35,082 nucleotides of DNA, from the NCBI GenBank assembly GCA_016190485.1, contig JACPQN010000045.1, positions 1 through 35,082 of the forward strand. The letters are read 5' to 3'. The notes beneath the pieces were generated by a model that searched no databases, was not told the origin of the DNA, and saw nothing but the letters and a program-made list of their open reading frames with translations. Each line of letters begins with the position of its first letter. The first letter of the stretch is position 1. A program made the translations under genes and the position numbers. Of this stretch, positions 3,840-34,767 are shown in pieces. The stretch is from Chloroflexota bacterium (GTDB lineage Bacteria > Chloroflexota > Dehalococcoidia > SHYD01).

Positions 3840-6023
3840 ATGTATGGCAGGGACGTACAAGCAGCGGAACGCAGGGCAACCGCGTGGCGATGGCTGCTCC
3901 TGCTCACACTCCTGTCGTGGGCAGGGTTGGCCTGGGGCTGCACGCAGGAAGAACTAGCCGATGTAAAGCGGGGTATAGAGCTTGTGACCCCTCCCGAGGC
4001 CCGGCCTCAGCCAGCAGTGACGGGAACGGCTACTCCTGGCTCAGCACGGAGTGCGCGGGCACAGCAGTTTATCGATATCGGCAAACTTGAGGCCCAGATC
4101 GGCGCGTTTGAGGCGGCAGTTTCGGCTTTCGAAGCTGCTCTGCAAGTAGACCCGTCCAATCAAGAAGCGCAACGCTTGCTCGAAGCCACCCGTAAGTCTG
4201 CGGGCCAGCCGTCCACCTCCGGGGCCAGTCCTACGCCGATCCGGCTAGAGGTCCCCAAGCTGCCCCCCGTTTCCCTGCCACTAGCTCCCCCTGCGACGCC
4301 CACATCAACGGCGGTGGGATGCGTAGGTGACGAGAAGCTGGTCTTAGAGCCTGCATCAGCGGCTGTGGGTGACCAGGTGTTGCTGTCTGTCACCTCCATC
4401 AAAGAGCATCAGAATGTGCGCCTTGCGGCTCCCAGCGGGACTGAGTTTCTAGGCAGGGTCTCCCAGAACGGAAGCTTCCTGTGGCAGTGGCGCTATCCAG
4501 CGCAGGCGAGAGGGGAGTTCGCCTTCCATTTTTATGTGGACTTTAACACCCTCTGCGCCTCCGGTAATCTGACGGTTACGGGACGCTGGCAGCCGCTGAG
4601 CAGCGGCCTTCCCCCGCCTCAGGACTTTACCATCACTGCCCTCGCGGTGTCGCCTGCGTATCCCTTCGATTCAACCCTTTTCTTGGCCTTTGACGGAGCC
4701 GGGGTCTATAAGTCGGTGGATGCGGGTGCGGGGTCCCCCACCTTTTTCCCTATTAATGAGGGCCTTGGTGATCTAGGGGTGATGACCCTGGCAGTATCTC
4801 CGAACTACCGGTATGATAAAACCTTGTTTGTGGGCACCAAGCTGGGCAGAATCTACCGCAGCACCGATGGAGGTGGGAGTTGGGTCATCCGCCAGACTTT
4901 TGCGGGAGTTGGAAGGAGCGATGTAACCGCTTTAGCAGTTTCACCAAACTTTGCAACCGACACCACATTGCTCGCGACGGTGGACGGGCAGGGCGTCTAT
5001 ACCTCGCAAGACCGCGGAGACACCTGGTATCCTATGAATGATGGTCTCAAGGATCGTACTATGCAGGCCGTAAGTATCTCTGCTGATTATGCCAACGACG
5101 GTCTGCTGTTCACTGGAACTCGGTTCAGCGGCACCTATCGTTTTGGCGGCAGCGCACAGGCCAGCACGCTATCGCCACAAGCCCCTACTGATCTTGCGCC
5201 GAAGTTCTGTCTTGTAACCGGGGTTGGCGCCGATAAGCAGGTGCTCAGGTGTCTGGCCATCGTCGTTACCGCTGGTACGGCTGCCGACAAACAAACGTTT
5301 GCCCTGAACCAGTCCGGTTCTGTCACGTACACTTATAAGGTGAGAAACGAGGACGGGCAGGGACCGATTTTCAACATCACGATAAAGGACGATGCCGGCA
5401 CCCCCGACAACACCAATGACGACGTGGTAATCGGGACGGTGGATAAACTTGAAGTCGGTGAATCGAAGACCTTTACCAGAAGGTTCTACGTAGCCCAGGA
5501 CCGGGTCTCTATCGCCACTGCAACAGGAAGAGCAGAACTAAATGCTCAGAGTGTCTTCTTGACTGCGACGGATGACGCGCTGGTAGATGCCCCCGAGTGG
5601 TCTTCCATGAATCTGGGTCTGGAGGACTTGTGGATCCGTAGCCTGGCAATTTCTCCCTTCTATGCCAACGACCGCACCCTGTTTGCCGGTGGTACCTACG
5701 GAGGTCTGTTTAAGCACGACGGAAAGCAGTGGAAGCAGGTAAATGAAGGTCTGGCTGAGAAGTGGGCCTGGATTGATTCGATCGTCCTGTCGCCTCGCTT
5801 TCCTCGTGATCCCACCATTTACGTGGGGACCAGTTCGGGTGTATACCGTTCTACGAATGGGGGCGAAAGCTGGGTAACCATGCGTGCAGGCCTGCCCAAC
5901 CTCAGCGCAAGCCCAGACCTGAACCGGGGCGTCCGCGCCCTGGCGATCTCTCCCGACTTTGGCAACGACCGCACGGTGTTCGCCGTGGTATGGCGTGATA
6001 ATATCTATCGTGTGCGGGACTGA
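3840..6023 (+). CDS. Lipoprotein with seven-repeat Asp-box beta-propeller
   Basis: This 727-residue protein sits between pilO and pilM. A basic N-terminus, hydrophobic helix and LAWGC lipobox (Cys34) predict a lipoprotein. Residues ~75-115 resemble a TPR hairpin (AFEAAVSAFEAALQVDPSNQ). From ~260 to the end there are seven repeats of the type LAVSPxYxxDxTLFxGT...IYRSTDGGGSW, with Asp-box signatures STDGGGSW and STNGGESW. Seven such units would close a BNR/Ycf48-like propeller. The first four and last three are separated by ~130 residues (~455-585) that look like a DUF11/CARDB-type beta-sandwich (SVTYTYKVRNEDG, ESKTFTRRFYV). Tandem placement with pilNO and pilM suggests a secretion or pilus accessory role on the outer face of the membrane; the ligand is unknown. 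Confidence 0.7.
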   Translation: MYGRDVQAAERRATAWRWLLLLTLLSWAGLAWGCTQEELADVKRGIELVTPPEARPQPAVTGTATPGSARSARAQQFIDIGKLEAQIGAFEAAVSAFEAALQVDPSNQEAQRLLEATRKSAGQPSTSGASPTPIRLEVPKLPPVSLPLAPPATPTSTAVGCVGDEKLVLEPASAAVGDQVLLSVTSIKEHQNVRLAAPSGTEFLGRVSQNGSFLWQWRYPAQARGEFAFHFYVDFNTLCASGNLTVTGRWQPLSSGLPPPQDFTITALAVSPAYPFDSTLFLAFDGAGVYKSVDAGAGSPTFFPINEGLGDLGVMTLAVSPNYRYDKTLFVGTKLGRIYRSTDGGGSWVIRQTFAGVGRSDVTALAVSPNFATDTTLLATVDGQGVYTSQDRGDTWYPMNDGLKDRTMQAVSISADYANDGLLFTGTRFSGTYRFGGSAQASTLSPQAPTDLAPKFCLVTGVGADKQVLRCLAIVVTAGTAADKQTFALNQSGSVTYTYKVRNEDGQGPIFNITIKDDAGTPDNTNDDVVIGTVDKLEVGESKTFTRRFYVAQDRVSIATATGRAELNAQSVFLTATDDALVDAPEWSSMNLGLEDLWIRSLAISPFYANDRTLFAGGTYGGLFKHDGKQWKQVNEGLAEKWAWIDSIVLSPRFPRDPTIYVGTSSGVYRSTNGGESWVTMRAGLPNLSASPDLNRGVRALAISPDFGNDRTVFAVVWRDNIYRVRD

Positions 6024-6062
6024 TTAGTCCTAGTTCCAGTGCCTAGCAATAGGCGAGTTGTT

Positions 6063-6959
6063 ATGCGTCTCCCCTTTCTCAGCAGTTCCCGTGACATCGT
6101 GACGCTCTCGGTAGACAGCGGGGCTGTGCGGCTGCTGACCGCCCGTGGTGGCGCTGTTGTCATGTGGGCAAGCGCGCCGTTGGAGCCAGGCCTGCTGGAG
6201 GAAGGGATTATCCAGCAGCCTGAGGAAGTGGGGAAGGTCATCGCAGCCATCTTTCAAGAGCACCATATCCCCAAGAACCGAGTTGTCACCAGTATTCCGG
6301 GAGCGCAGGCGATTTACCGCATCTTCTCCCTCCCAGCCATGCGTCAGGAGGACTTAAGCAGTGCGGTGATCTACCAGCTCAAGCGGGAGCTTCCCCTGCC
6401 CGCGGAGGAACTGGCCCTTGGATGGCAGCTCTTGGGGACCTCTGACCGCCAGCAGCAGATTTTTGCGGTGGGTGTCCCACGAGATATCATAGGCCCCTGT
6501 GTAGAAGCGTTCCGTGTCGCCGACCTGAAACCTAAGGCCATCGATGTCAAGCCTTTAGCCCTTGCCCGAGTAACGCAGCGGTCAAACGTCGTTGTCGGAA
6601 ATATCGAGACGGACAGCGTAGACATTGTATGCTTGTTGGACTACGCACCGGTCATCGTCCGGTCGTTGTACTTCCCATCTCCCGCTGTCTCCGCTCTGGA
6701 GATGGGCCAGCGGCTGGCGGATGAGCTCCACCTCAGCGTTCGGTCCTATAATGACAACAATCGCCAGCATCCCATTGGGACCAATCTCACCGCTTTTCTG
6801 ACGGGGGGTGGAAGCGACTATTTCTCGCTCGCGGAAGCCCTCTACGGGACCCTGGAGTTTACCTTAGAGCGCCTCTCTTCCCCCCTTGGGCACCCGGCCG
6901 ACTTCCCTGTGGAAGAGTACGCCACCAACCTGGGCCTGGCGCTTAAAGGAAACTCGTGA
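6063..6959 (+). CDS. pilM: PilM-like actin-fold pilus assembly ATPase
   Basis: PilM is a cytoplasmic actin-like protein that binds the N-terminal peptide of PilN. The ~298-residue product contains DIVTLSVDSGAVRLL (first phosphate-loop region), an SIPGAQAIYRIFSLPAM segment and YQLKRELPLPAEEL, which matches the conserved lPf.p.eel region of PilM. It then has a second actin lobe ending FLTGGGSDY, the adenosine-binding glycine motif. ATG 6063 is preferred over GTG 6039 because AGGCGAG lies 5 nt upstream and the protein then begins like homologues. In most bacteria pilM precedes pilN; here it follows pilO and the propeller lipoprotein. It ends 1 nt before the TTG chosen for the next gene. Confidence 0.8.
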   Translation: MRLPFLSSSRDIVTLSVDSGAVRLLTARGGAVVMWASAPLEPGLLEEGIIQQPEEVGKVIAAIFQEHHIPKNRVVTSIPGAQAIYRIFSLPAMRQEDLSSAVIYQLKRELPLPAEELALGWQLLGTSDRQQQIFAVGVPRDIIGPCVEAFRVADLKPKAIDVKPLALARVTQRSNVVVGNIETDSVDIVCLLDYAPVIVRSLYFPSPAVSALEMGQRLADELHLSVRSYNDNNRQHPIGTNLTAFLTGGGSDYFSLAEALYGTLEFTLERLSSPLGHPADFPVEEYATNLGLALKGNS

Positions 6960-7740: not shown

Positions 7741-8817
7741 ATGGGTATTGATGATCTCCTAAGATTAGCGGTAGAACACCGAGCTTCTGATCTGCACATA
7801 AAAGTCCCCAGCCCGCCCATGATGCGGGTAGATGGGAGCCTGCTGGCAGTGGAAGGGGCGCCCGCAGTGACTGCGGAGGACGTGCAGCAGATGTTCGAGC
7901 AGATCACTACAGAGCTGCAGCGCCAAAGCTTCCAGCAGCGGTGGGAGCTGGACTTCTCGTATACCCTGGAAGCAGCGGGGCGTTTCCGTGTCAATGCTGC
8001 CTATCAACGAGGTACCATTGCCCTTGCTTTTCGGACCATTCCCTCGGATATCCCTAACATCACAGAGCTGGGTCTACCGGAGATTTGCCGAACGCTCGCC
8101 CTAAAGCCTAACGGCCTCGTGCTAGTGACTGGACCAACGGGAAGCGGCAAGTCTACCACCCTGGCTGCGATGATCAATTACATTAATCAGAGTCGCAAAT
8201 GCCATATCGTGACTGTTGAAGACCCAATTGAATTCATTCATACCGATAAGGAGTCCATCATCGCCCAGCGGGAGATCGGGAGTGATACTACCTCCTACGT
8301 GGAAGCCCTGAAACACGTGTTACGCCAGGACCCCGATGTCATCCTGGTGGGGGAGATGCGGGACCTGGAGACTGTCTCTACGGCTATCACCGCTGCCGAG
8401 ACCGGACACCTGGTGCTAGCTACCCTGCACACCAACAGTGCTACGCAGACCATTGACCGGATCATTGATGTCTTTTCCCCAGAGCAACAGCAACAGATCC
8501 GCTTGCAACTCTCGGTTGTGCTGGAGGGAATCGTGACACAGGCCTTGCTTCCTAAAGCCTCCAAGACCGGACGGGTGGTAGCCATGGAGATATTGGTCAT
8601 AACCTCCGCAGTAAGAAATCTCATCAGAGAGGCGAAGACCTTCCAGATCCCCAACGTCATGCAGATGGGGACCCAATTCGGTAGCCAGACTATGGACCAG
8701 TCCCTCAAGTCACTGGTAGAGCGTCGCTTAGTCGATCTTAACGTAGCTCTGGATCATGCAACCAATCAGGAGGAGCTCCAACGCCAGTTGGGGGCAGCAG
8801 TCTCAGGACTCCGCTGA
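7741..8817 (+). CDS. pilT: PilT-type twitching/retraction ATPase
   Basis: This 358-residue cytoplasmic hexameric ATPase would power pilus retraction. Visible motifs are an N-terminal PAS-like domain (1-100), Walker A GPTGSGKST (131-139), Asp box TVEDPIEFIH (158-167), Walker B DVILVGEMRD (199-208), His box ETGHLVLATLHT (220-231) and the PilT-specific AVRNLIREAK (near 290-299), which separates PilT from PilB. Length matches the family. The ATG at 7741 follows AGAGGAGGGAACT, a strong ribosome-binding site 12 bp after the pilD stop. No pilB or pilC is in the window, so extension components must be encoded elsewhere. Confidence 0.93.
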   Translation: MGIDDLLRLAVEHRASDLHIKVPSPPMMRVDGSLLAVEGAPAVTAEDVQQMFEQITTELQRQSFQQRWELDFSYTLEAAGRFRVNAAYQRGTIALAFRTIPSDIPNITELGLPEICRTLALKPNGLVLVTGPTGSGKSTTLAAMINYINQSRKCHIVTVEDPIEFIHTDKESIIAQREIGSDTTSYVEALKHVLRQDPDVILVGEMRDLETVSTAITAAETGHLVLATLHTNSATQTIDRIIDVFSPEQQQQIRLQLSVVLEGIVTQALLPKASKTGRVVAMEILVITSAVRNLIREAKTFQIPNVMQMGTQFGSQTMDQSLKSLVERRLVDLNVALDHATNQEELQRQLGAAVSGLR

Positions 8818-24760: not shown

Positions 24761-26014
24761 CTACTGGATCCGCAGCAGCTCCGGCACCCGCGCCACTACC
24801 AGCGCCACCGATAGCACCGTGAGCAGCCCGCCCACCGCGATGGCCTGGGGCACACCGATGGTGCTGCCCAGGAAGCCCAGGAACAGGCTGCCGAAGCTGG
24901 TCATGCCCCAGGTGAGCATGTAGGCGCTCATCACCCGCCCCCGCATCTCGTCGCTCACCAGCGCCTGCACCAGGGTGCTGGCCAGGGTCATGAAGCAGGC
25001 GTTCACCACGCCAATAAGCCCTATGACGGCCAGGGACAGCGGCAGGGAGCGGGTGAGGGAGAAGGCCAGGATGGCTGCCCCGAAGGTCAGTCCCACCGCC
25101 GCGAGCAGCCGCCCTCGTTCCTCCAGGCTTGACTTGAGGGCCAGCCCCAGGTTGGCCAGCAGCGCCCCGATGCCCGAGGCCGTCAGCAGCATGCTGTAGA
25201 CCGAGGCGTCGCCACGGAGAACGTCGGCGGTGAAGGAGGGCAGGAGGGTCATGGTGGCCGTCTGCCCAAAGACGGCCGGCAGCAGCGTCAGGATCAGCAA
25301 GGCAAAGATCACCGTGGTGTTGCGGGTATACCGCAGGCCTCCGACAAAGGCCTCCCACGGGTGCTCCTGAGACCGCATCTGTGCTCCAGCGGGCACGTGG
25401 GGCCGCACCTGCCAGAAGAACCACACCGCCAGGGCGTACAGGGCAGCCGTCAGATAGAAGCAGCCAGCGGTGCCCAGTCGCGCAATGAACCAGCCCGCTA
25501 CGGCGGGTCCCACGATGGTGCTCCCGCTCCACACGCCGGAGTAGATGGCCATGGCGTGCATCAGCTCCCTGGGGCTGACCAGGTTGGGGAAGAGGGCCTG
25601 CCGCCCCGGCAGCTCCAGGGCCACAAAGGCCCCCCAGGAGAACGCGTAGAGGGCCACGTGCCACACCTCTACCACCCGCAGCGCCGTCAGCACCCCCAGG
25701 AGCAGCGCCAGAGCCGCACCGATGCCGCGGCTCCAGGCAATGAGCTTGATGCGGTCCACCCGGTCGGCCAGCACACCACCGGGGAGGGAGAAGAGCAGGA
25801 TGGGCAGGCTGCCAGCGAAGCTGATGAAGCCCACGGAGAAGGGCGAGCCAGTCATCTCCTGGACCAGCCAGCGCTGCGCCACGTCGGAGACCCAGACACC
25901 CAGCGAAAGGGTCAGCAGCCCGCCAAAGAACCAGCGGAATCCCGGATAGGCGAAGGCCCCACCGAAACGGCGCTCCTCTACCTCCGGACCCATCGTCGGA
26001 AGGGCCGCGCTCAT
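24761..26014 (-). CDS. MFS transporter (MFS_3/EntS-like exporter)
   Basis: This 417-residue polytopic protein has ~12 hydrophobic helices and the loop motif GGVLADRVDRIKLI (83-96), the motif A of drug/siderophore exporters of the major facilitator superfamily. PLPILLFSLPGGVLADRV and RQALFPNLVSPRELMHAMAI are typical of the EntS/MFS_3 group. The ATG overlaps the stop of the upstream hydrolase by ATGA, so translation is coupled. The cargo is unknown. Confidence 0.87.
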   Translation of the reverse strand: MSAALPTMGPEVEERRFGGAFAYPGFRWFFGGLLTLSLGVWVSDVAQRWLVQEMTGSPFSVGFISFAGSLPILLFSLPGGVLADRVDRIKLIAWSRGIGAALALLLGVLTALRVVEVWHVALYAFSWGAFVALELPGRQALFPNLVSPRELMHAMAIYSGVWSGSTIVGPAVAGWFIARLGTAGCFYLTAALYALAVWFFWQVRPHVPAGAQMRSQEHPWEAFVGGLRYTRNTTVIFALLILTLLPAVFGQTATMTLLPSFTADVLRGDASVYSMLLTASGIGALLANLGLALKSSLEERGRLLAAVGLTFGAAILAFSLTRSLPLSLAVIGLIGVVNACFMTLASTLVQALVSDEMRGRVMSAYMLTWGMTSFGSLFLGFLGSTIGVPQAIAVGGLLTVLSVALVVARVPELLRIQ

Positions 26015-26814
26015 TCTCTCTGCCCTCCGGCCACACCCAGCGTGTGTCTGAACCAGTCGGCAGTGTAGAGGCAGACCTGCATCAGGGCCATGTCGCTGCT
26101 GTACGCGTGGTCGGCGCCGGGCACCAGCACCAGCTCCTTCTGCGGACTGCCGGCGTGCACGTGGTAGCCCTGGGCGTCCTCCACCGTAACGCCGGTGTCC
26201 GCCTCGCCCTGGATGATGCGCACCGGCGCCCGCAGGCGGCCCACCTCAGCGGCAACGTCGTACCGCTGAAGGTCCTCGTAGAAGCCGTAGTCAAGGAACA
26301 ACGCGGAGCCGGGCGGATCCATCTCCACGGAGCCACGCTCCTGCCACCCCCGCACCTGCTCCTCGCCTAGAAAGCCGGCCAGCTTCTCCGGCATGTCAAA
26401 GACCGCCGATAGCGTGACCAGGGACTTGATGGCGGGTGTGCGTGCAGCAGTGATGGCCGCCAGCATCCCGCCGAAGCTGTGGCCTGTGAGCCCCAGCCGC
26501 TCCGGATCGGCCTCCGTGCGTCCTTGCAGATAAGCCAGCGCATCCTGCACGTCCTCCAGCGACTGGCTGACGGTCAGGCGGCGGAACTCGCCCTGGGAGT
26601 CGCCCAGGTTATTGGTCAGGTCAACCCGGAGGGAGAAAAAGCCAGCGTGGGCCAGGGCGTCGGCCACGGCCACGATGTGCCGTTCGCTGCGGTTGCCGCG
26701 AAAGCCATGCACCACCAGGACAGCGGGCAACGGGCCCTGCCCCTCTGGCGCAAGGAGTGTCCCCACCATCTGCAGGCCCCGGCGGTTGGGGAAGGCGACG
26801 GTCTCCTCTCGCAT
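26011..26814 (-). CDS. Alpha/beta hydrolase
   Basis: This 267-residue serine hydrolase has the nucleophile elbow GHSFGG (S113), acid in QGEADTGV and His in GADHAYSS near residue 244; VVHGFRGN forms the oxyanion region. It resembles the acyl-peptide hydrolase/DUF1749-like esterases. It begins 3 bp after the cysS-GT2 stop and its stop overlaps the MFS start, so all three are probably one operon. RBS CTAGGGG-type is weak, consistent with coupling. Confidence 0.87.
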   Translation of the reverse strand: MREETVAFPNRRGLQMVGTLLAPEGQGPLPAVLVVHGFRGNRSERHIVAVADALAHAGFFSLRVDLTNNLGDSQGEFRRLTVSQSLEDVQDALAYLQGRTEADPERLGLTGHSFGGMLAAITAARTPAIKSLVTLSAVFDMPEKLAGFLGEEQVRGWQERGSVEMDPPGSALFLDYGFYEDLQRYDVAAEVGRLRAPVRIIQGEADTGVTVEDAQGYHVHAGSPQKELVLVPGADHAYSSDMALMQVCLYTADWFRHTLGVAGGQRE

Positions 26815-26817
26815 CCC

Positions 26818-29007
26818 CTAGCTGCCCGGGCCGGGACCGTGGATCGTGTGGTAGAGCAGGTCGGTGCGGTGCCCCCACTTGCTCAGGAAGCGATAGAAGT
26901 TCCGGCGGCTCAGCTTATCGCGCTCCCCCTCCTCCAGGCTTGCCCAGCCCCGGTGCTCGTGCTGGCGCACCGGCAGGCCGGAGAGCATGATGTTGCGGTA
27001 GCCGTGAGCTCTGAGGTTCATGGAGAAGTCCAGGTCCAGGTTGCGGTAGAAGCGGAACTTCTCGTCCAGCAGACCCACCTCTCGCAGCAGCTCCCGGCGG
27101 AAGGCCATGCAGTAGCCCTCGATGGCGTCCACCTCCTCGTGGGAAGCGTCCTCAAAGTGGCGCAGGTCTTCCGAGCAGAGGCCCCAGCCACCCGTGGCGC
27201 CGATGTCGGGAGTCGAGAGGGTGCGGATGATGGGCGTCAAGATGTCGCCTGTCAGCTCGATGCTGGTATCCAGGAGCAGGATGTGGGCGCCACGGCTCTG
27301 CTTCAGTCCGACGTTCCGTCCGGTGCCCTCGCCCACGTTATGGTCGGTATGGAAGACCCGCACTCGGGCGTCCCGACGGGCTAGCTCCTCGGCCCACTGG
27401 CCGGCGCCGTCGGTGGAGGCGTTGTCCACTATGACCACCTCCAACTGATGGGCGTCCCCATGCCGGAGCACGCTCTCCACACAGCGGCGCAGGTCATCCT
27501 GATAATCGTGGGCCAGGATGTTCACAGAGATCTGGCAGGCGTCCGGCTCCTGGAGCAGGGAGGGCACGTCCCCGGAGGAGGAGAGGGCGCCCACCAGCTT
27601 GTCGGGCTGGAAGCCGCGGTCTCGGGGCAGGACCAGGGTGTCGGCCCGACGATCTCGCACCTCGTACCCTGCGGCGATGATCTCCTGCCGCAGGGCATCC
27701 GACACCTGGTAGCGGCCACCGGTACGAGGATCGCCCCGCTCCTCCGCCAGTCGCTGGATACTCAGGGGCAGGCCCTGGGCCGCTTCGGCCACTTGGCGCA
27801 GCGCGAGTCCCAGCGCCTGGTCGAACTCCATCACCAATGACAGCTTTGCGGCCGGCGGCAGGTCAGTCTGCGCCAGCTTCCAGAGGACGCTCAGGGCCTG
27901 GGGCAGGCCCAGGTCGTCCTCCACGTGGGCCCAAAAGCGCTCGCGCCACGCCTGGGACACCTCCGTAGCCGACGCCTGGCCGCCGGCCAGGGCCCACTCT
28001 CGTACCAGGGTGCGCAGGTGTGCGAGGCCGTGCTGGGCGCAGCGCAACGCCTGGAAGGAGAAGTTGAGGCGGGCGCTGTAGTGGGCCGTGAGGCACAGGT
28101 AGCGGAAAGCCAGGGGATCGAAGCCCCGCTCCTCCAGGTCGGAGAGGGTGTAGGAGTTGCCCGTGGACTTGGCCATCTTCAGGCCATCGGCCAGGAGGTG
28201 CTGGCCATGCACCCAGTAGCGCACAAAGGGCACGCCAAAGGCGCCCTCGCTCTGGGCTAGCTCGTCCTCGTGGTGGGGGAAGATGTTGTCCACTCCGCCG
28301 GTATGGAGGTCGAGCTGAGGGCCCAGGTACTTGGTAGACATGGCGGTGCACTCGATGTGCCAGCCGGGAAAGCCCTCACCCCAGGGGCTGGGCCACTTCA
28401 CGGTGCGGCCCGGCTCCGCAGCCTTCCAGAGGGCAAAGTCCGTCTGGTTACGCTTCTGGGGGTCCACCTCCACCCGCACGCCCTCCAGCAGGCTGGCCAG
28501 GCGGTTGCCGGAGAGGCGCCCGTACTCGGGGTACTTGGCCACGTCGAAGTAGACGTTGCCCTCCACCACGTAGGCGTAGCCCCTGGCTACCAGTTGTTGC
28601 GTGATCTCGATCATCTCCGCCACGTGGTCTGTGGCCCTCGGGAAGACCGTGGCCGGGGCAATGCCCAGCTTGGCCTCGTCTTGCAGGAACGCCTGGGTGT
28701 AGAAGGCCGCGATCTCCTGGAGGCTCTTGCCCTCGGCCAGCGCGGCCGAGATCATCTTGTCCTCGCCCCGTTCCACCATCTCCTGGCGCATATGGCCCAC
28801 GTCGGTGATGTTCTTGACATGCTCCACCCGGTAGCCCTGGTGTTCCAGCGCGCGGCGGATGCCGTCGGCCATGAGGTAGGAGCGCATGTTGCCGATGTGG
28901 GCGTAGCGGTAGACCGTGGGGCCGCAGGTGTACATGCGAGCCATGCCCTGCTCTCGGGGCACAAACTCTTCCTTGTGGCGGGTGAGGGTGTTGGTGAAGC
29001 GCAGCAT
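26818..29007 (-). CDS. cysS: Cysteinyl-tRNA synthetase fused to a GT2 glycosyltransferase-like domain
   Basis: A single uninterrupted 729-residue chain. Residues 1-~465 are a complete CysRS: zinc ligands C28 (TCGPTVY), C220 (HIECTAM) and H245/H246 (FPHHEDE), HIGH-type HIGN (37-40), KMSKS-type KMAKS (277-281) and an anticodon-binding end (SDALRQEIIAAGYEVRDRRADTL). A linker to ~490 leads to a GT-A family 2 fold: CQISVNILAHDYQDDLRRCVESVL, IVDNASTDG, RNVGLKQSRGAHILLLDTS, then EGYCMAFRRELLREVGLLDEKF and LDLDFSMNLRAHGY. The usual DxD is DTS, so catalysis of the second domain is doubtful. ATG 29007 follows AAAGGACC; an upstream in-frame start at 29091 lacks homology. It lies 91 bp behind the - strand selenoglutaredoxin. 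Confidence 0.9.
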   Translation of the reverse strand: MLRFTNTLTRHKEEFVPREQGMARMYTCGPTVYRYAHIGNMRSYLMADGIRRALEHQGYRVEHVKNITDVGHMRQEMVERGEDKMISAALAEGKSLQEIAAFYTQAFLQDEAKLGIAPATVFPRATDHVAEMIEITQQLVARGYAYVVEGNVYFDVAKYPEYGRLSGNRLASLLEGVRVEVDPQKRNQTDFALWKAAEPGRTVKWPSPWGEGFPGWHIECTAMSTKYLGPQLDLHTGGVDNIFPHHEDELAQSEGAFGVPFVRYWVHGQHLLADGLKMAKSTGNSYTLSDLEERGFDPLAFRYLCLTAHYSARLNFSFQALRCAQHGLAHLRTLVREWALAGGQASATEVSQAWRERFWAHVEDDLGLPQALSVLWKLAQTDLPPAAKLSLVMEFDQALGLALRQVAEAAQGLPLSIQRLAEERGDPRTGGRYQVSDALRQEIIAAGYEVRDRRADTLVLPRDRGFQPDKLVGALSSSGDVPSLLQEPDACQISVNILAHDYQDDLRRCVESVLRHGDAHQLEVVIVDNASTDGAGQWAEELARRDARVRVFHTDHNVGEGTGRNVGLKQSRGAHILLLDTSIELTGDILTPIIRTLSTPDIGATGGWGLCSEDLRHFEDASHEEVDAIEGYCMAFRRELLREVGLLDEKFRFYRNLDLDFSMNLRAHGYRNIMLSGLPVRQHEHRGWASLEEGERDKLSRRNFYRFLSKWGHRTDLLYHTIHGPGPGS

Positions 29008-29098
29008 GGGTGGGTCCTTTTGCCCGTCCTCCCAGCCCTGGGCCCTGGCGCTGGTTGAGGGAGTAGAAGCGCCTACGAAACGGCCCGTCACCGGCGGG

Positions 29099-29320
29099 CT
29101 ACTGGATGTGTCAGCCGCGGCGCCCTTGAAAGCCGATCTCCACCACGCCGTCCCGCACGATGACCGGCACGGTGTCAGACAGCGCGGTCACCTCCGCCCA
29201 CCACTCGGCCCGCTGGTTGACGATGCGCTCCTCGAAAGGGATCCCCTGCTCGGTGAAGTAGCTCTTCGCCCGGTCGGAGGTCTCTCAGTTGCGTATGGTG
29301 TACAGGATGACCTGGGACAT
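29099..29320 (-). CDS. Putative selenocysteine-containing glutaredoxin (UxxS)
   Basis: From ATG 29320 (behind AAGGAA) the frame reads SQVILYTIRN-TGA-ETSDRAKSYFTEQGIPFEERIVN ... LSDTVPVIVRDGVVEIGFQGRRG. This is a glutaredoxin/NrdH-like fold with TGA (29287-29285, codon 12) where CxxC normally begins; the second position is Ser15. TVP is the cis-Pro loop. Excluding TGA as stop, the product is 69 residues to a second TGA (29113-29111), or 73 to TAG (29101-29099), if that TGA is also decoded. A hairpin suited to a SECIS element follows the first TGA. A nonsense mutation is the alternative, but the divergent neighbour carries the same change at the same place and a tRNA-Sec gene is in the window. 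Confidence 0.72.
29252..29287 (-). promoter_or_regulatory. Candidate bacterial SECIS of the - strand glutaredoxin
   Basis: On the - strand, 17 nt after the TGA (29287-29285) there is GAAG (29267-29264), loop AGCTA (29263-29259) and CTTC (29258-29255). A C/A mismatch separates this from GG/CC extending the stem. The loop starts 22 nt after the TGA and has G in its second position, both within the known limits for bacterial SECIS elements. Confidence 0.6.
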
Positions 29321-29442: not shown

Positions 29443-29448
29443 TATAAT
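29443..29448 (+). promoter_or_regulatory. -10 element before the + strand glutaredoxin
   Basis: Perfect TATAAT at 29443-29448, inside the short palindrome GCTATAATAGC, 38 bp before ATG 29487. No good -35 at the standard distance. Confidence 0.5.
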
Positions 29449-29486
29449 AGCGTAAGCAGCCTGACATCTCAGGAGCAGCATCTCAC

Positions 29487-29732
29487 ATGCAGCGACAGGT
29501 CGTACTTTACAGCCACGAACGGTGATCCGCCTGCCGGGTGGTGAAAGAGTTCCTTTCCCAGCGGGCTGTGCCCTTCACCGTGAGGAACGTGACCCAGGAC
29601 CCCCAGGCCTTGCGGGAGTTCCAGGCCCGTGGCTACCTCTTGCCACCCGTCACCGTGGTGGACGGCCAGGCCGTGGCCGGCTACGACCCCGCTCGGCTAG
29701 AGGCGCTCCTTTTCCCGGAGCTCTTTAGCTAG
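29487..29732 (+). CDS. Putative selenocysteine-containing glutaredoxin (UxxC)
   Basis: From ATG 29487 (AGGAG 11 nt upstream) the frame reads QRQVVLYSHER-TGA-SACRVVKEFLSQRAVPFTVRNV ... LPPVTVVDGQAVAGYDPARLEALLF, ending TAG at 29730-29732. It is an 81-residue glutaredoxin: beta1 VVLYS, active site U13-S-A-C16, PFTVRNV, cis-Pro LPPVTVVDG and the GYDPARLEALL helix. TGA 29523-29525 replaces exactly the nucleophilic Cys of CxxC, and Cys16 is kept. Conventional calling would begin at the GTG at 29538 and lose the active site. A bulged-stem SECIS-like hairpin follows. This pattern argues for a selenoprotein with thiol-disulfide reductase activity rather than a nonsense mutant. Confidence 0.82.
29523..29560 (+). 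promoter_or_regulatory. Candidate bacterial SECIS of the + strand glutaredoxin
   Basis: After TGA 29523-29525 and 17 nt, GAAAG (29543-29547) and CTTTC (29553-29557) close a loop AGTTC. TGG (29539-29541) pairs with CCA (29558-29560), leaving U29542 bulged. Loop start is 22 nt after the TGA, with G in its second position. Bulged U plus an AG-start loop resembles the E. coli fdhF SECIS that SelB binds. Confidence 0.68.
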
Positions 29733-33267: not shown

Positions 33268-33365
33268 TGGCGGGAGTGCGTGGGAGTCGAACCCACCCGA
33301 GTACACGCGGGTGCACTCGCAACGGTTTTGAAGACCGCGAGAGCCACCGGGCCCCCTCCACTCCC
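33268..33365 (-). tRNA. selC: tRNA-Sec (anticodon TCA)
   Basis: Read on -, a 98-nt tRNA from 33365 to 33268, including the encoded CCA. Acceptor: GGGAGTG(G) pairs with (G)CACTCCC, seven pairs plus a G/G at the eighth. D arm is long (GGGGGCC/GGCTCTC with GU pairs). Anticodon arm GCGGT-CTTCAAA-ACCGT shows TCA at 33331-33329. The variable arm is 9 bp (CGAGTGCAC/GTGTACTCG), and the T arm is GTGGG-TTCGACT-CCCAC. A TCA anticodon with a long D stem and a long variable arm identifies selenocysteine tRNA. It is 60 bp from trxB and about 3.5 kb from the two UGA-containing glutaredoxins. selA, selB and selD are not in the window. Confidence 0.93.
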
Positions 33366-33409
33366 GTGCGGCTCAGTATAGCAGCCCGCCACGCCTGAGG
33401 GAAGCAGCA

Positions 33410-33432
33410 GCCCGCCGGACGCGCCGGCGGGC
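33410..33432 (-). terminator. Hairpin after trxB
   Basis: Perfect 9-bp arms GCCCGCCGG (33410-33418) and CCGGCGGGC (33424-33432) with a 5-nt loop, ~20 bp beyond the trxB stop. No long T run follows on -. Confidence 0.55.
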
Positions 33433-33451
33433 CTGCGTCGGCGAGGCCGCT

Positions 33452-34390
33452 CTACTCGCCTGCTTTGGCCCGCAGCTCCTGCAGGTAGCGGCGGACCGCC
33501 AGCGCGGCCGTGGCGCCATCCCCGGCGGCGGAGACCACCTGGCGGGCTGCCTGCTGGCGGATGTCGCCCGCGGCGAAGATCCCCGGCACCGCAGTCTCCA
33601 TCCAGGCGTTCACCAGGATGTGTCCCGCGTTGTCCATGGGCAGCAGCCCCTGGAGAAAGTTGCTGTTGGGCGTGAGGCCGATGTAAATGAACACGCCCTC
33701 CACCTCCAGGCTGGATGGCGCGCCAGTTTTTGCGTTCTTCAGGCTGAGGGAACTGACTACACCGTTGCCGTTGATCCGCTCCACCACGGTGTCCCACTGG
33801 AACTCCATCTTGGGTTCGGCGAAAGCCCGCTCTTGGAGGATCTTGCCCGCCCGGAGCTGGTCCCGGCGGTGGATGAGGGTGACCTTAGAGGCGTAGCGGG
33901 TGAGGAAGAGGCCCTCGTCCAGCGCGGCGTCGCCGCCGCCCACCACCGCAACCGGAGAGTCCACAAAGAACGCGGCGTCGCACACCGCACAGTTGGAGAC
34001 GCCCTTTCCCATGTACTCCAGCTCTCCCGGCACGCCCAGCCGGGCATGCTCGGCGCCGGAGGTGACGATCAGCGCCCTGGCAGTGACGTCGCCGTCATCG
34101 GTGTGCACCACCCGGTCCAGGCCGTCCAGGGACACGCCATGCACTTCGGAGGAGAGCATCTCTGCCCCGAAACGCTTGGTCTGGGTCTCCATGGCCTCGC
34201 TGAGGTCAGGCCCTTCGATACCCTGGGTAAAGCCCGGGTAGTTCTCTACAGTGGAGGTAGTGGCAATCTGTCCCCCCGGCGTCATGCGCTCGATGAGGAG
34301 CGTCTTGAGCCGGGCGCGGCCGGTGTAGATGGCGGCGGTCATGCCCGTGGGCCCGGCCCCCACGATGATCACGTCGTACTGCTTATCCAT
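33452..34390 (-). CDS. trxB: Thioredoxin-disulfide reductase
   Basis: This 312-residue FAD/NADPH flavoenzyme transfers electrons from NADPH to thioredoxin. Seen: FAD motif GAGPTG (11-16), redox pair C134-A-V-C137 in NCAVCDAAFF, NADPH motif GGGDAALDEG (151-160) and the C-terminal FAD loop AAGDIRQQAARQVVSAAGDG. Both active-site residues are encoded by Cys codons, not TGA. ATG 34390 begins 47 bp after the trxA stop in the same direction, so the pair is likely transcribed from the promoter at 34846-34874. It may recharge the selenoglutaredoxins as well as TrxA. Confidence 0.95.
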   Translation of the reverse strand: MDKQYDVIIVGAGPTGMTAAIYTGRARLKTLLIERMTPGGQIATTSTVENYPGFTQGIEGPDLSEAMETQTKRFGAEMLSSEVHGVSLDGLDRVVHTDDGDVTARALIVTSGAEHARLGVPGELEYMGKGVSNCAVCDAAFFVDSPVAVVGGGDAALDEGLFLTRYASKVTLIHRRDQLRAGKILQERAFAEPKMEFQWDTVVERINGNGVVSSLSLKNAKTGAPSSLEVEGVFIYIGLTPNSNFLQGLLPMDNAGHILVNAWMETAVPGIFAAGDIRQQAARQVVSAAGDGATAALAVRRYLQELRAKAGE

Positions 34391-34437
34391 GTGGGTGCTC
34401 CCGGAGAGGCATGGCAGCCTGCCCCTCCATGCGGCGG

Positions 34438-34767
34438 TTAGACCACCAGGGCTTCGTCTAGCTGCTGCTTCAGGTCTTTCTTGGGGCGCAGCCCCACCAC
34501 CTGCTTCACCGGGTGCCCGTTCTTGAACACCATGATGGTGGGGATGCTCATGATCCCGTAGCGGGCGGCGACGTTGGGGCTCTCATCGGTGTTCAGCTTG
34601 GTGAAGGTCACGCGACCCTCATACTCCTGGGCCAGCTCCTCTACAATAGGCGCCAGCCGGCGGCAGGGCGCGCACCAGGGCGCCCAGAAGTCCACCAGCA
34701 CCGGCTGGCCCGACTTCAGCACCTGGTCGTCAAAAGTGATCTCGCTGACTTCGACTGGCTTGCCCAT
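34438..34767 (-). CDS. trxA: Thioredoxin
   Basis: This 109-residue thioredoxin has the active site W31-C32-A-P-C35 (FWAPWCAPCRRLAPIVEEL); Ala replaces the usual Gly of WCGPC, a common natural variant. The cis-Pro segment is SIPTIMVF, followed by the usual beta-sheet end (VVGLRPKKDLKQQLDEAL). ATG 34767 is preceded by AGGGAGGAACC. It is the first gene of trxA-trxB, with a clear sigma70-type promoter and a palindrome in the leader. Confidence 0.95.
   Translation of the reverse strand: MGKPVEVSEITFDDQVLKSGQPVLVDFWAPWCAPCRRLAPIVEELAQEYEGRVTFTKLNTDESPNVAARYGIMSIPTIMVFKNGHPVKQVVGLRPKKDLKQQLDEALVV

Follow-up and report, generated by a model that had tools for sequence, protein, structure and literature searches.

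A predicted UxxC selenoprotein glutaredoxin with an in-frame TGA at its catalytic position in a Dehalococcoidia genome

Glutaredoxins with selenocysteine (Sec, U) at the catalytic position are a described kind of selenoprotein: the Grx family (PF00462, UxxC) is entered as experimentally verified in Table 1 of PMC13188914, and Clostridium oremlandii Grx1 has a native catalytic selenocysteine in a U(or C)PXC motif, in which residue 13 attacks and Cys16 resolves (PMC7642778). Sargasso Sea data yielded ten selenoprotein glutaredoxins (PMC1088965), a 2006 survey of genomes counted three, along with three selenoproteins of any kind in Chloroflexi (PMC1794560), and the same family is listed in a 2022 review (PMC9312934). 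A literature search of open-licence papers found none on a set of Sec glutaredoxins in Chloroflexi, Dehalococcoidia or Chloroflexota. The stretch of 35,082 nucleotides analysed here (contig JACPQN010000045.1 of assembly GCA_016190485.1, from a Chloroflexota bacterium of the class Dehalococcoidia), called the window in what follows, contains a gene starting at position 29487 (Table 1) that, judging from sequence comparison, encodes with a probability of about 0.96 a UxxC selenoprotein glutaredoxin, selenocysteine being inserted at the UGA of codon 13. Because UxxC glutaredoxins are already catalogued (PMC13188914), the kind is known and the window gene is a new example of it. It has the domain, the motif and the single Sec per protein of the catalogued family, and its TGA-bearing relatives, frequent in one class and present elsewhere in the phylum, are more widely spread than that paper states.

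A single reading frame runs from ATG 29487 to the TAG at 29730-29732, with the TGA at codon 13 as its sole internal stop, and the protein read from 29487 is MQRQVVLYSHER-U-SACRVVKEFLSQ... (81 residues, U being codon 13), with the active-site motif USAC. When U is replaced by C, a profile search scores the protein at 42.7 bits against PF00462 (Glutaredoxin; cut-off 22.9), which bears out the description in a first-pass annotation of the same DNA: a complete 81-residue glutaredoxin apart from one TGA, which falls on the catalytic Cys of CxxC while the resolving Cys of codon 16 is kept as TGC. The relatives agree with that placement. The best match in the PDB is 7c10, which aligns over residues 1-76 with 52.7 bits and has Cys at both 13 and 16. 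We take it to be the C. oremlandii protein (cGrx1), which has an MsrA partner, from the residues S10, N11, T12, C13, H15, T18, K20, E21, S24, E25 and N26 given in PMC7642778, a paper that does not mention 7c10 in its text; entries 7c12/7c13 are probably its C16S form, and Alkaliphilus is presumably a synonym genus name for Clostridium oremlandii. On this comparison cGrx1 appears to be the nearest solved relative: both are glutaredoxins with an equally numbered catalytic residue 13 and resolving Cys16 and with VKEFLS after the motif, whereas the motif is USAC in the window and CPHC in the solved chain.

Within the class, 196 of 393 genomes have a glutaredoxin match, and the 13 best rows (the window included) each carry one TGA; 20 further rows with TGA and 20 stop-free rows were picked from the match list for alignment. 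Codon 13 of the 76 aligned rows is TGA in 47, TGC in 19 and TGT in 10, and Trp or Gly in none, so every aligned homologue has the Cys or the possible Sec codon that the first-pass annotation had expected in this column; two TGA rows (L076 and L080), whose alignment begins after column 13, were left out. TGA rows occur in at least 74 of the 393 class genomes, the position of the TGA being confirmed for the rows that were fetched and aligned. A sample of 400 genomes from the phylum gave 39 with a match at E<=1e-9, 27 of them (the window included) with at least one TGA row, the TGA position having been checked for a minority of rows. The closest named relatives are two Chloroflexi metagenome-assembled genomes (67 and 60% identity), followed by one of Acidobacteria (49%), and a plasmid search returned 21 records, each below 60% identity. 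The best row of the phylum sample after the window, L125, is 63% identical and of the Cys form (TGC), in a genome that carries selA. A second TGA-bearing glutaredoxin paralogue, 40% identical, lies elsewhere in the genome of the window (L031, G000:C140:23263-23481), and the open reading frame (ORF) adjoining it resembles, by eye, a Crp/Fnr-type regulator.

In a phylogeny built from the 76 rows after masking of column 13, the window falls inside a 14-row clade that is entirely TGA (support 99/98). Parsimony places 12 changes of the Sec/Cys label on this tree, of which at least seven are forced by well-supported branches; the underlying alignment is short, with 28 of the 72 inner branches open. 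L125, which is outside the tree, is likely to be a Cys member of the window's clade.

The strong evidence for a predicted selenocysteine insertion sequence (SECIS) is comparative and lies at the level of the family. Most TGA members have a stem of 6-8 pairs on the 3' side of the TGA, with a loop containing GU. When the protein was held fixed, synonymous codons were resampled and folding was compared, the TGA rows gave a mean z of -2.30 with p<=0.05 in 35 of 47, and the Cys rows a mean z of -0.21 with p<=0.05 in 2 of 29; the Mann-Whitney p of 1.7e-10 for this difference is optimistic because the sequences share ancestry and so are not independent. Six or more contiguous pairs form in 39 of the 47 TGA rows (42 if one 5' bulge is allowed) versus none of the 29 Cys rows (one with the bulge), the loop has GU in 46/47 versus 6/29, and the 3' arm has CTT as its Leu codon in 43/47 versus 4/29. 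In L125 that codon is CTC and such a hairpin is absent; the comparison that contains L125 covered 7 of 17 loci, with L131 misaligned there by one codon, and L127 and L128, which read identically to L022 and L023 over the compared stretch, are probably from the same genomes and add no evidence.

Pairing in a single register over the 47 TGA rows is poor (77.6% paired, with slid versions scoring higher on covariation) because two registers are mixed. After a split into registers of 31 and 12 rows (L023, L049, L053 and L025 being in neither), 98.2% of cells are paired in register 1 and 97.6% in register 2, compared with at most 62.2% and 57.1% in slid controls, a gain that is partly by construction since the split was chosen after seeing the sequences. 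Each register has nine cells with changes on both sides, a count reached in 0 of 500 shuffles in either case. The window's own hairpin consists of GGTGAAAG at 29540-29547 (T29542 bulged), the loop AGTTC at 29548-29552 and CTTTCCC at 29553-29559, or GG(U)GAAAG-AGUUC-CUUUCCC as RNA with the U bulged, and it is included in the minimum free energy (MFE) fold of a 51-nucleotide stretch (-20.1 kcal/mol).

The genome also possesses the machinery for selenocysteine. The draft assembly (2.89 Mb, 145 contigs, 83.6% complete) encodes selA (559.5 bits), selB (364.9 bits) and selD (389.5 bits), each above its curated cut-off, and selC, the gene for tRNA-Sec, lies in the window itself, so that the search for selA, selB and selD proposed in the first-pass annotation succeeded for all three and for the tRNA too. 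The window tRNA-Sec matches Rfam RF01852 at 33272-33365 with 72.4 bits (cut-off 47) and is the best of 12 matches in the genome; one other is slightly above the cut-off (48.7 bits) and probably reflects a different tRNA with a long arm. The selD gene of this genome (L018, about 1481 onward) has one in-frame TGA in the reading SCAG-U-AAK, which fits the UxxK motif catalogued for SelD (PMC13188914), and because of this TGA and motif SelD is itself probably a selenoprotein.

Co-occurrence with selA was assessed for 129 of the 196 matching class genomes, among the matches listed, with one genome bearing TAG (G262) left out and one with both a TGA and a TAA (G320) counted as TGA. A selA match at E<1e-30 is present in 68 of 74 genomes with a TGA row versus 33 of 55 with stop-free rows only (Fisher 2.2e-5, relatedness ignored). 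Among 26 matching genomes of the phylum outside the class, all 16 with a TGA row have selA over the cut-off, as do 8 of the 10 with stop-free rows only; selA alone is therefore no predictor of the Sec form.

Column 13, the sel genes with tRNA-Sec, and the family hairpin together support the selenocysteine interpretation put forward in the first-pass annotation. In the mechanism proposed here, tRNA-Sec with SelB would decode the UGA of codon 13 as selenocysteine, guided by a bacterial-type SECIS hairpin inside the coding sequence whose loop begins 22 nucleotides 3' of the UGA. Sec13 would then act as the nucleophile on a disulfide or other oxidised substrate, with Cys16 resolving the mixed selenosulfide; the glutaredoxin fold and this nucleophilic role are predicted by analogy with C. 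oremlandii Grx1. The likeliest putative role is to reduce disulfides in general, with electrons from a low-molecular thiol or from thioredoxin reductase, or else to serve as reductant of a peroxidase or methionine sulfoxide reductase. As for what would reduce the protein, the product of trxB in the same window may possibly be its electron source; trxA and trxB are at least 3.7 kb from the glutaredoxin gene.

Several observations weigh against this interpretation. The protein remains under the curated NCBIfam cut-offs for GlrX_YruB (TIGR02196, its best NCBIfam match, 53.0 bits against 88.55), NrdH (TIGR02194, 50.7 against 85.75) and UXX-star (NF041212, 33.3 against 66): it differs from the first two, its nearest profiles, in having Sec in place of Cys, and from UXX-star in keeping the resolving Cys. 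Taken by itself the window hairpin is weak (z -1.70 against dinucleotide shuffles, 9 of 200 being as good; p=0.114 in the synonymous-codon test), and five of the 47 TGA members (L023, L049, L053, L025 and L031) have no six-pair stem. Two coarser measures of covariation were indecisive: the number of pairs with changes on both sides was as high in 42 and 110 of 500 shuffles for registers 1 and 2, and the number of further pair types in 18 and 287. The window hairpin satisfies the published bacterial SECIS constraints (loop of 3-9 nucleotides, G in the first two loop positions, 16-37 nucleotides from the UGA; PMC13188914), a loose filter that is also satisfied by 265 of the 846 TGAs on both strands of the window; with 45 of 47 TGA rows and 12 of 29 Cys rows passing, these constraints were rejected as a discriminator. 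Six of the 74 class genomes with a TGA row have no clear selA, perhaps through incompleteness.

Three other explanations of the TGA can be considered. If it were a Cys codon mutated in a pseudogene, or a sequencing error, there would be no product or a truncated one, and a single change from TGT or TGC in a draft assembly would be enough; this is highly improbable given that 47 aligned members, drawn from many genomes, share the TGA at this column, that no other stop interrupts the conserved frame, and that the hairpin is retained in most TGA members and hardly any of the Cys members. A genome-wide reassignment of UGA to Trp, Gly or Cys, for which no point was found, is just as improbable: TGA terminates the window ORFs 26011-26814, 7741-8817, 6039-6959, 3840-6023 and 29111-29320, the relatives have Cys and never Trp or Gly in the column, and the only tRNA that ARAGORN finds in its scan of the window is tRNA-Sec. 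The lack of internal TGA in other window ORFs is uninformative because ORFs were cut at stops.

The third, a shorter protein without the active site, is slightly less improbable than these, although still very unlikely. As the first-pass annotation had warned of conventional gene calling, the ordinary-code ORF in the glutaredoxin frame has 64 residues from GTG 29538, and a start there would delete residues 1-17, including both active-site positions. The nine codons on the 5' side of the TGA nevertheless vary like coding sequence: differences by codon position are 0.338/0.165/0.591 among the nearest 13 members and 0.491/0.378/0.63 among all 47 TGA members, compared with 0.708/0.702/0.722 for bases -90 to -45 in the nearest 13. 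Because of this coding pattern, which also answers the question of relatives starting after the TGA, translation most likely starts upstream of the TGA rather than at GTG 29538.

Divergent from the selenoprotein glutaredoxin gene is a second gene with an in-frame TGA (P0002), which resembles UXX-star without reaching the cut-off of NF041212 (54.6 bits against 66) and has the active-site motif U-E-T-S in place of a resolving Cys. Its query matches 59 of 197 class genomes, some of them via the family of the first gene; among its aligned relatives, TGA together with a clear hairpin is seen in L107, and a Cys codon in L106 and L108-L124. The neighbour's own hairpin satisfies the loose bacterial SECIS constraints; it is weak, with a z of -0.60 and 52 of 200 shuffles doing equally well. 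By these comparisons the neighbour is probably a second selenoprotein, with less support than the first. A TGA-bearing relative of this neighbour is present in the same genome (G000:C120:5218-5427). Between the two divergent genes is a TATAAT at 29443-29448 (+), overlapped on the minus strand by a weak sigma-70-like match, which was the one promoter match in a scan that found no terminator.

The divergent pair is not supported as a conserved unit among the relatives compared, because the neighbour was not recovered near their glutaredoxins. The window's neighbours were not recognised by eye among the ORFs around L022, L023, L037, L038, L039, L042 and L031, where one downstream ORF is common to L022 and L023, and upstream ORFs are common to L037 and L038; tblastn with the UXX-star-like neighbour against eight relatives (L022, L023 and L037-L042, with up to 3 kb and 1.5 kb of flank) gave hits in L037 and L038 alone, and these were to the glutaredoxins themselves. 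Read-through frames of the whole window were scanned for UxxC-like motifs, with the output judged by eye. On the minus strand, trxA, trxB and tRNA-Sec follow in succession (33268-34767), and a 757-residue ORF (26818-29091) has a cysteinyl-tRNA synthetase part at residues 31-483 (TIGR00435, 413.2 bits, over the cut-off) and weak glycosyltransferase matches below the cut-off at about residues 513-640. The SECIS-like hairpin, the window tRNA-Sec, the neighbouring gene with an in-frame TGA and the known UxxC glutaredoxin family were all absent from the first-pass annotation.

Table 1. Positions of the glutaredoxin gene, its predicted recoding elements and associated genes in the window.
Feature	Position	Strand	Basis or remark
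Predicted UxxC glutaredoxin gene, 81 residues, U at 13	29487-29732	+	Frame, PF00462 match, relatives
In-frame TGA, predicted selenocysteine codon at catalytic position 13	29523-29525	+	TGA or Cys codon in 76/76 aligned rows
Resolving Cys16 (TGC)	29532-29534	+	Sequence
AGGAG, likely ribosome-binding site	29471-29475	+	Sequence; 11 nucleotides upstream of ATG
SECIS-like hairpin; loop begins 22 nucleotides 3' of TGA	29540-29559	+	Family covariation; stem, loop and MFE fold in window
UXX-star-like glutaredoxin gene, 69 residues, TGA at codon 12 (29285-29287)	29111-29320	-	Divergent from UxxC glutaredoxin gene
tRNA-Sec gene (selC), anticodon TCA	33268-33365	-	ARAGORN; sole tRNA it finds in window
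Thioredoxin-disulfide reductase, trxB	33452-34390	-	TIGR01292, 376.5 bits (cut-off 343.45)
Thioredoxin, trxA (context)	34438-34767	-	TIGR01068, 130.9 bits (cut-off 96.8)

What is new here is the occurrence of TGA rows in so many genomes of the class and the neighbouring second TGA-containing UXX-star-like gene. We lean towards the broader view that Chloroflexota have a large set of Sec glutaredoxins with repeated exchange of Sec and Cys, in which the SECIS has slid by one base pair and the GU loop has been kept. If true, this set would be a natural experiment on the gain, shift and erasure of SECIS elements, including a 63%-identical Cys form in a genome with selA. Its pairs of Sec and Cys forms, in which the hairpin is retained or absent, are good material for testing SECIS rules outside E. 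coli. Automatic annotation would cut such proteins short, with loss of the active site, and since TGA forms are frequent in the class, its thiol metabolism probably makes more use of selenium than is currently appreciated.
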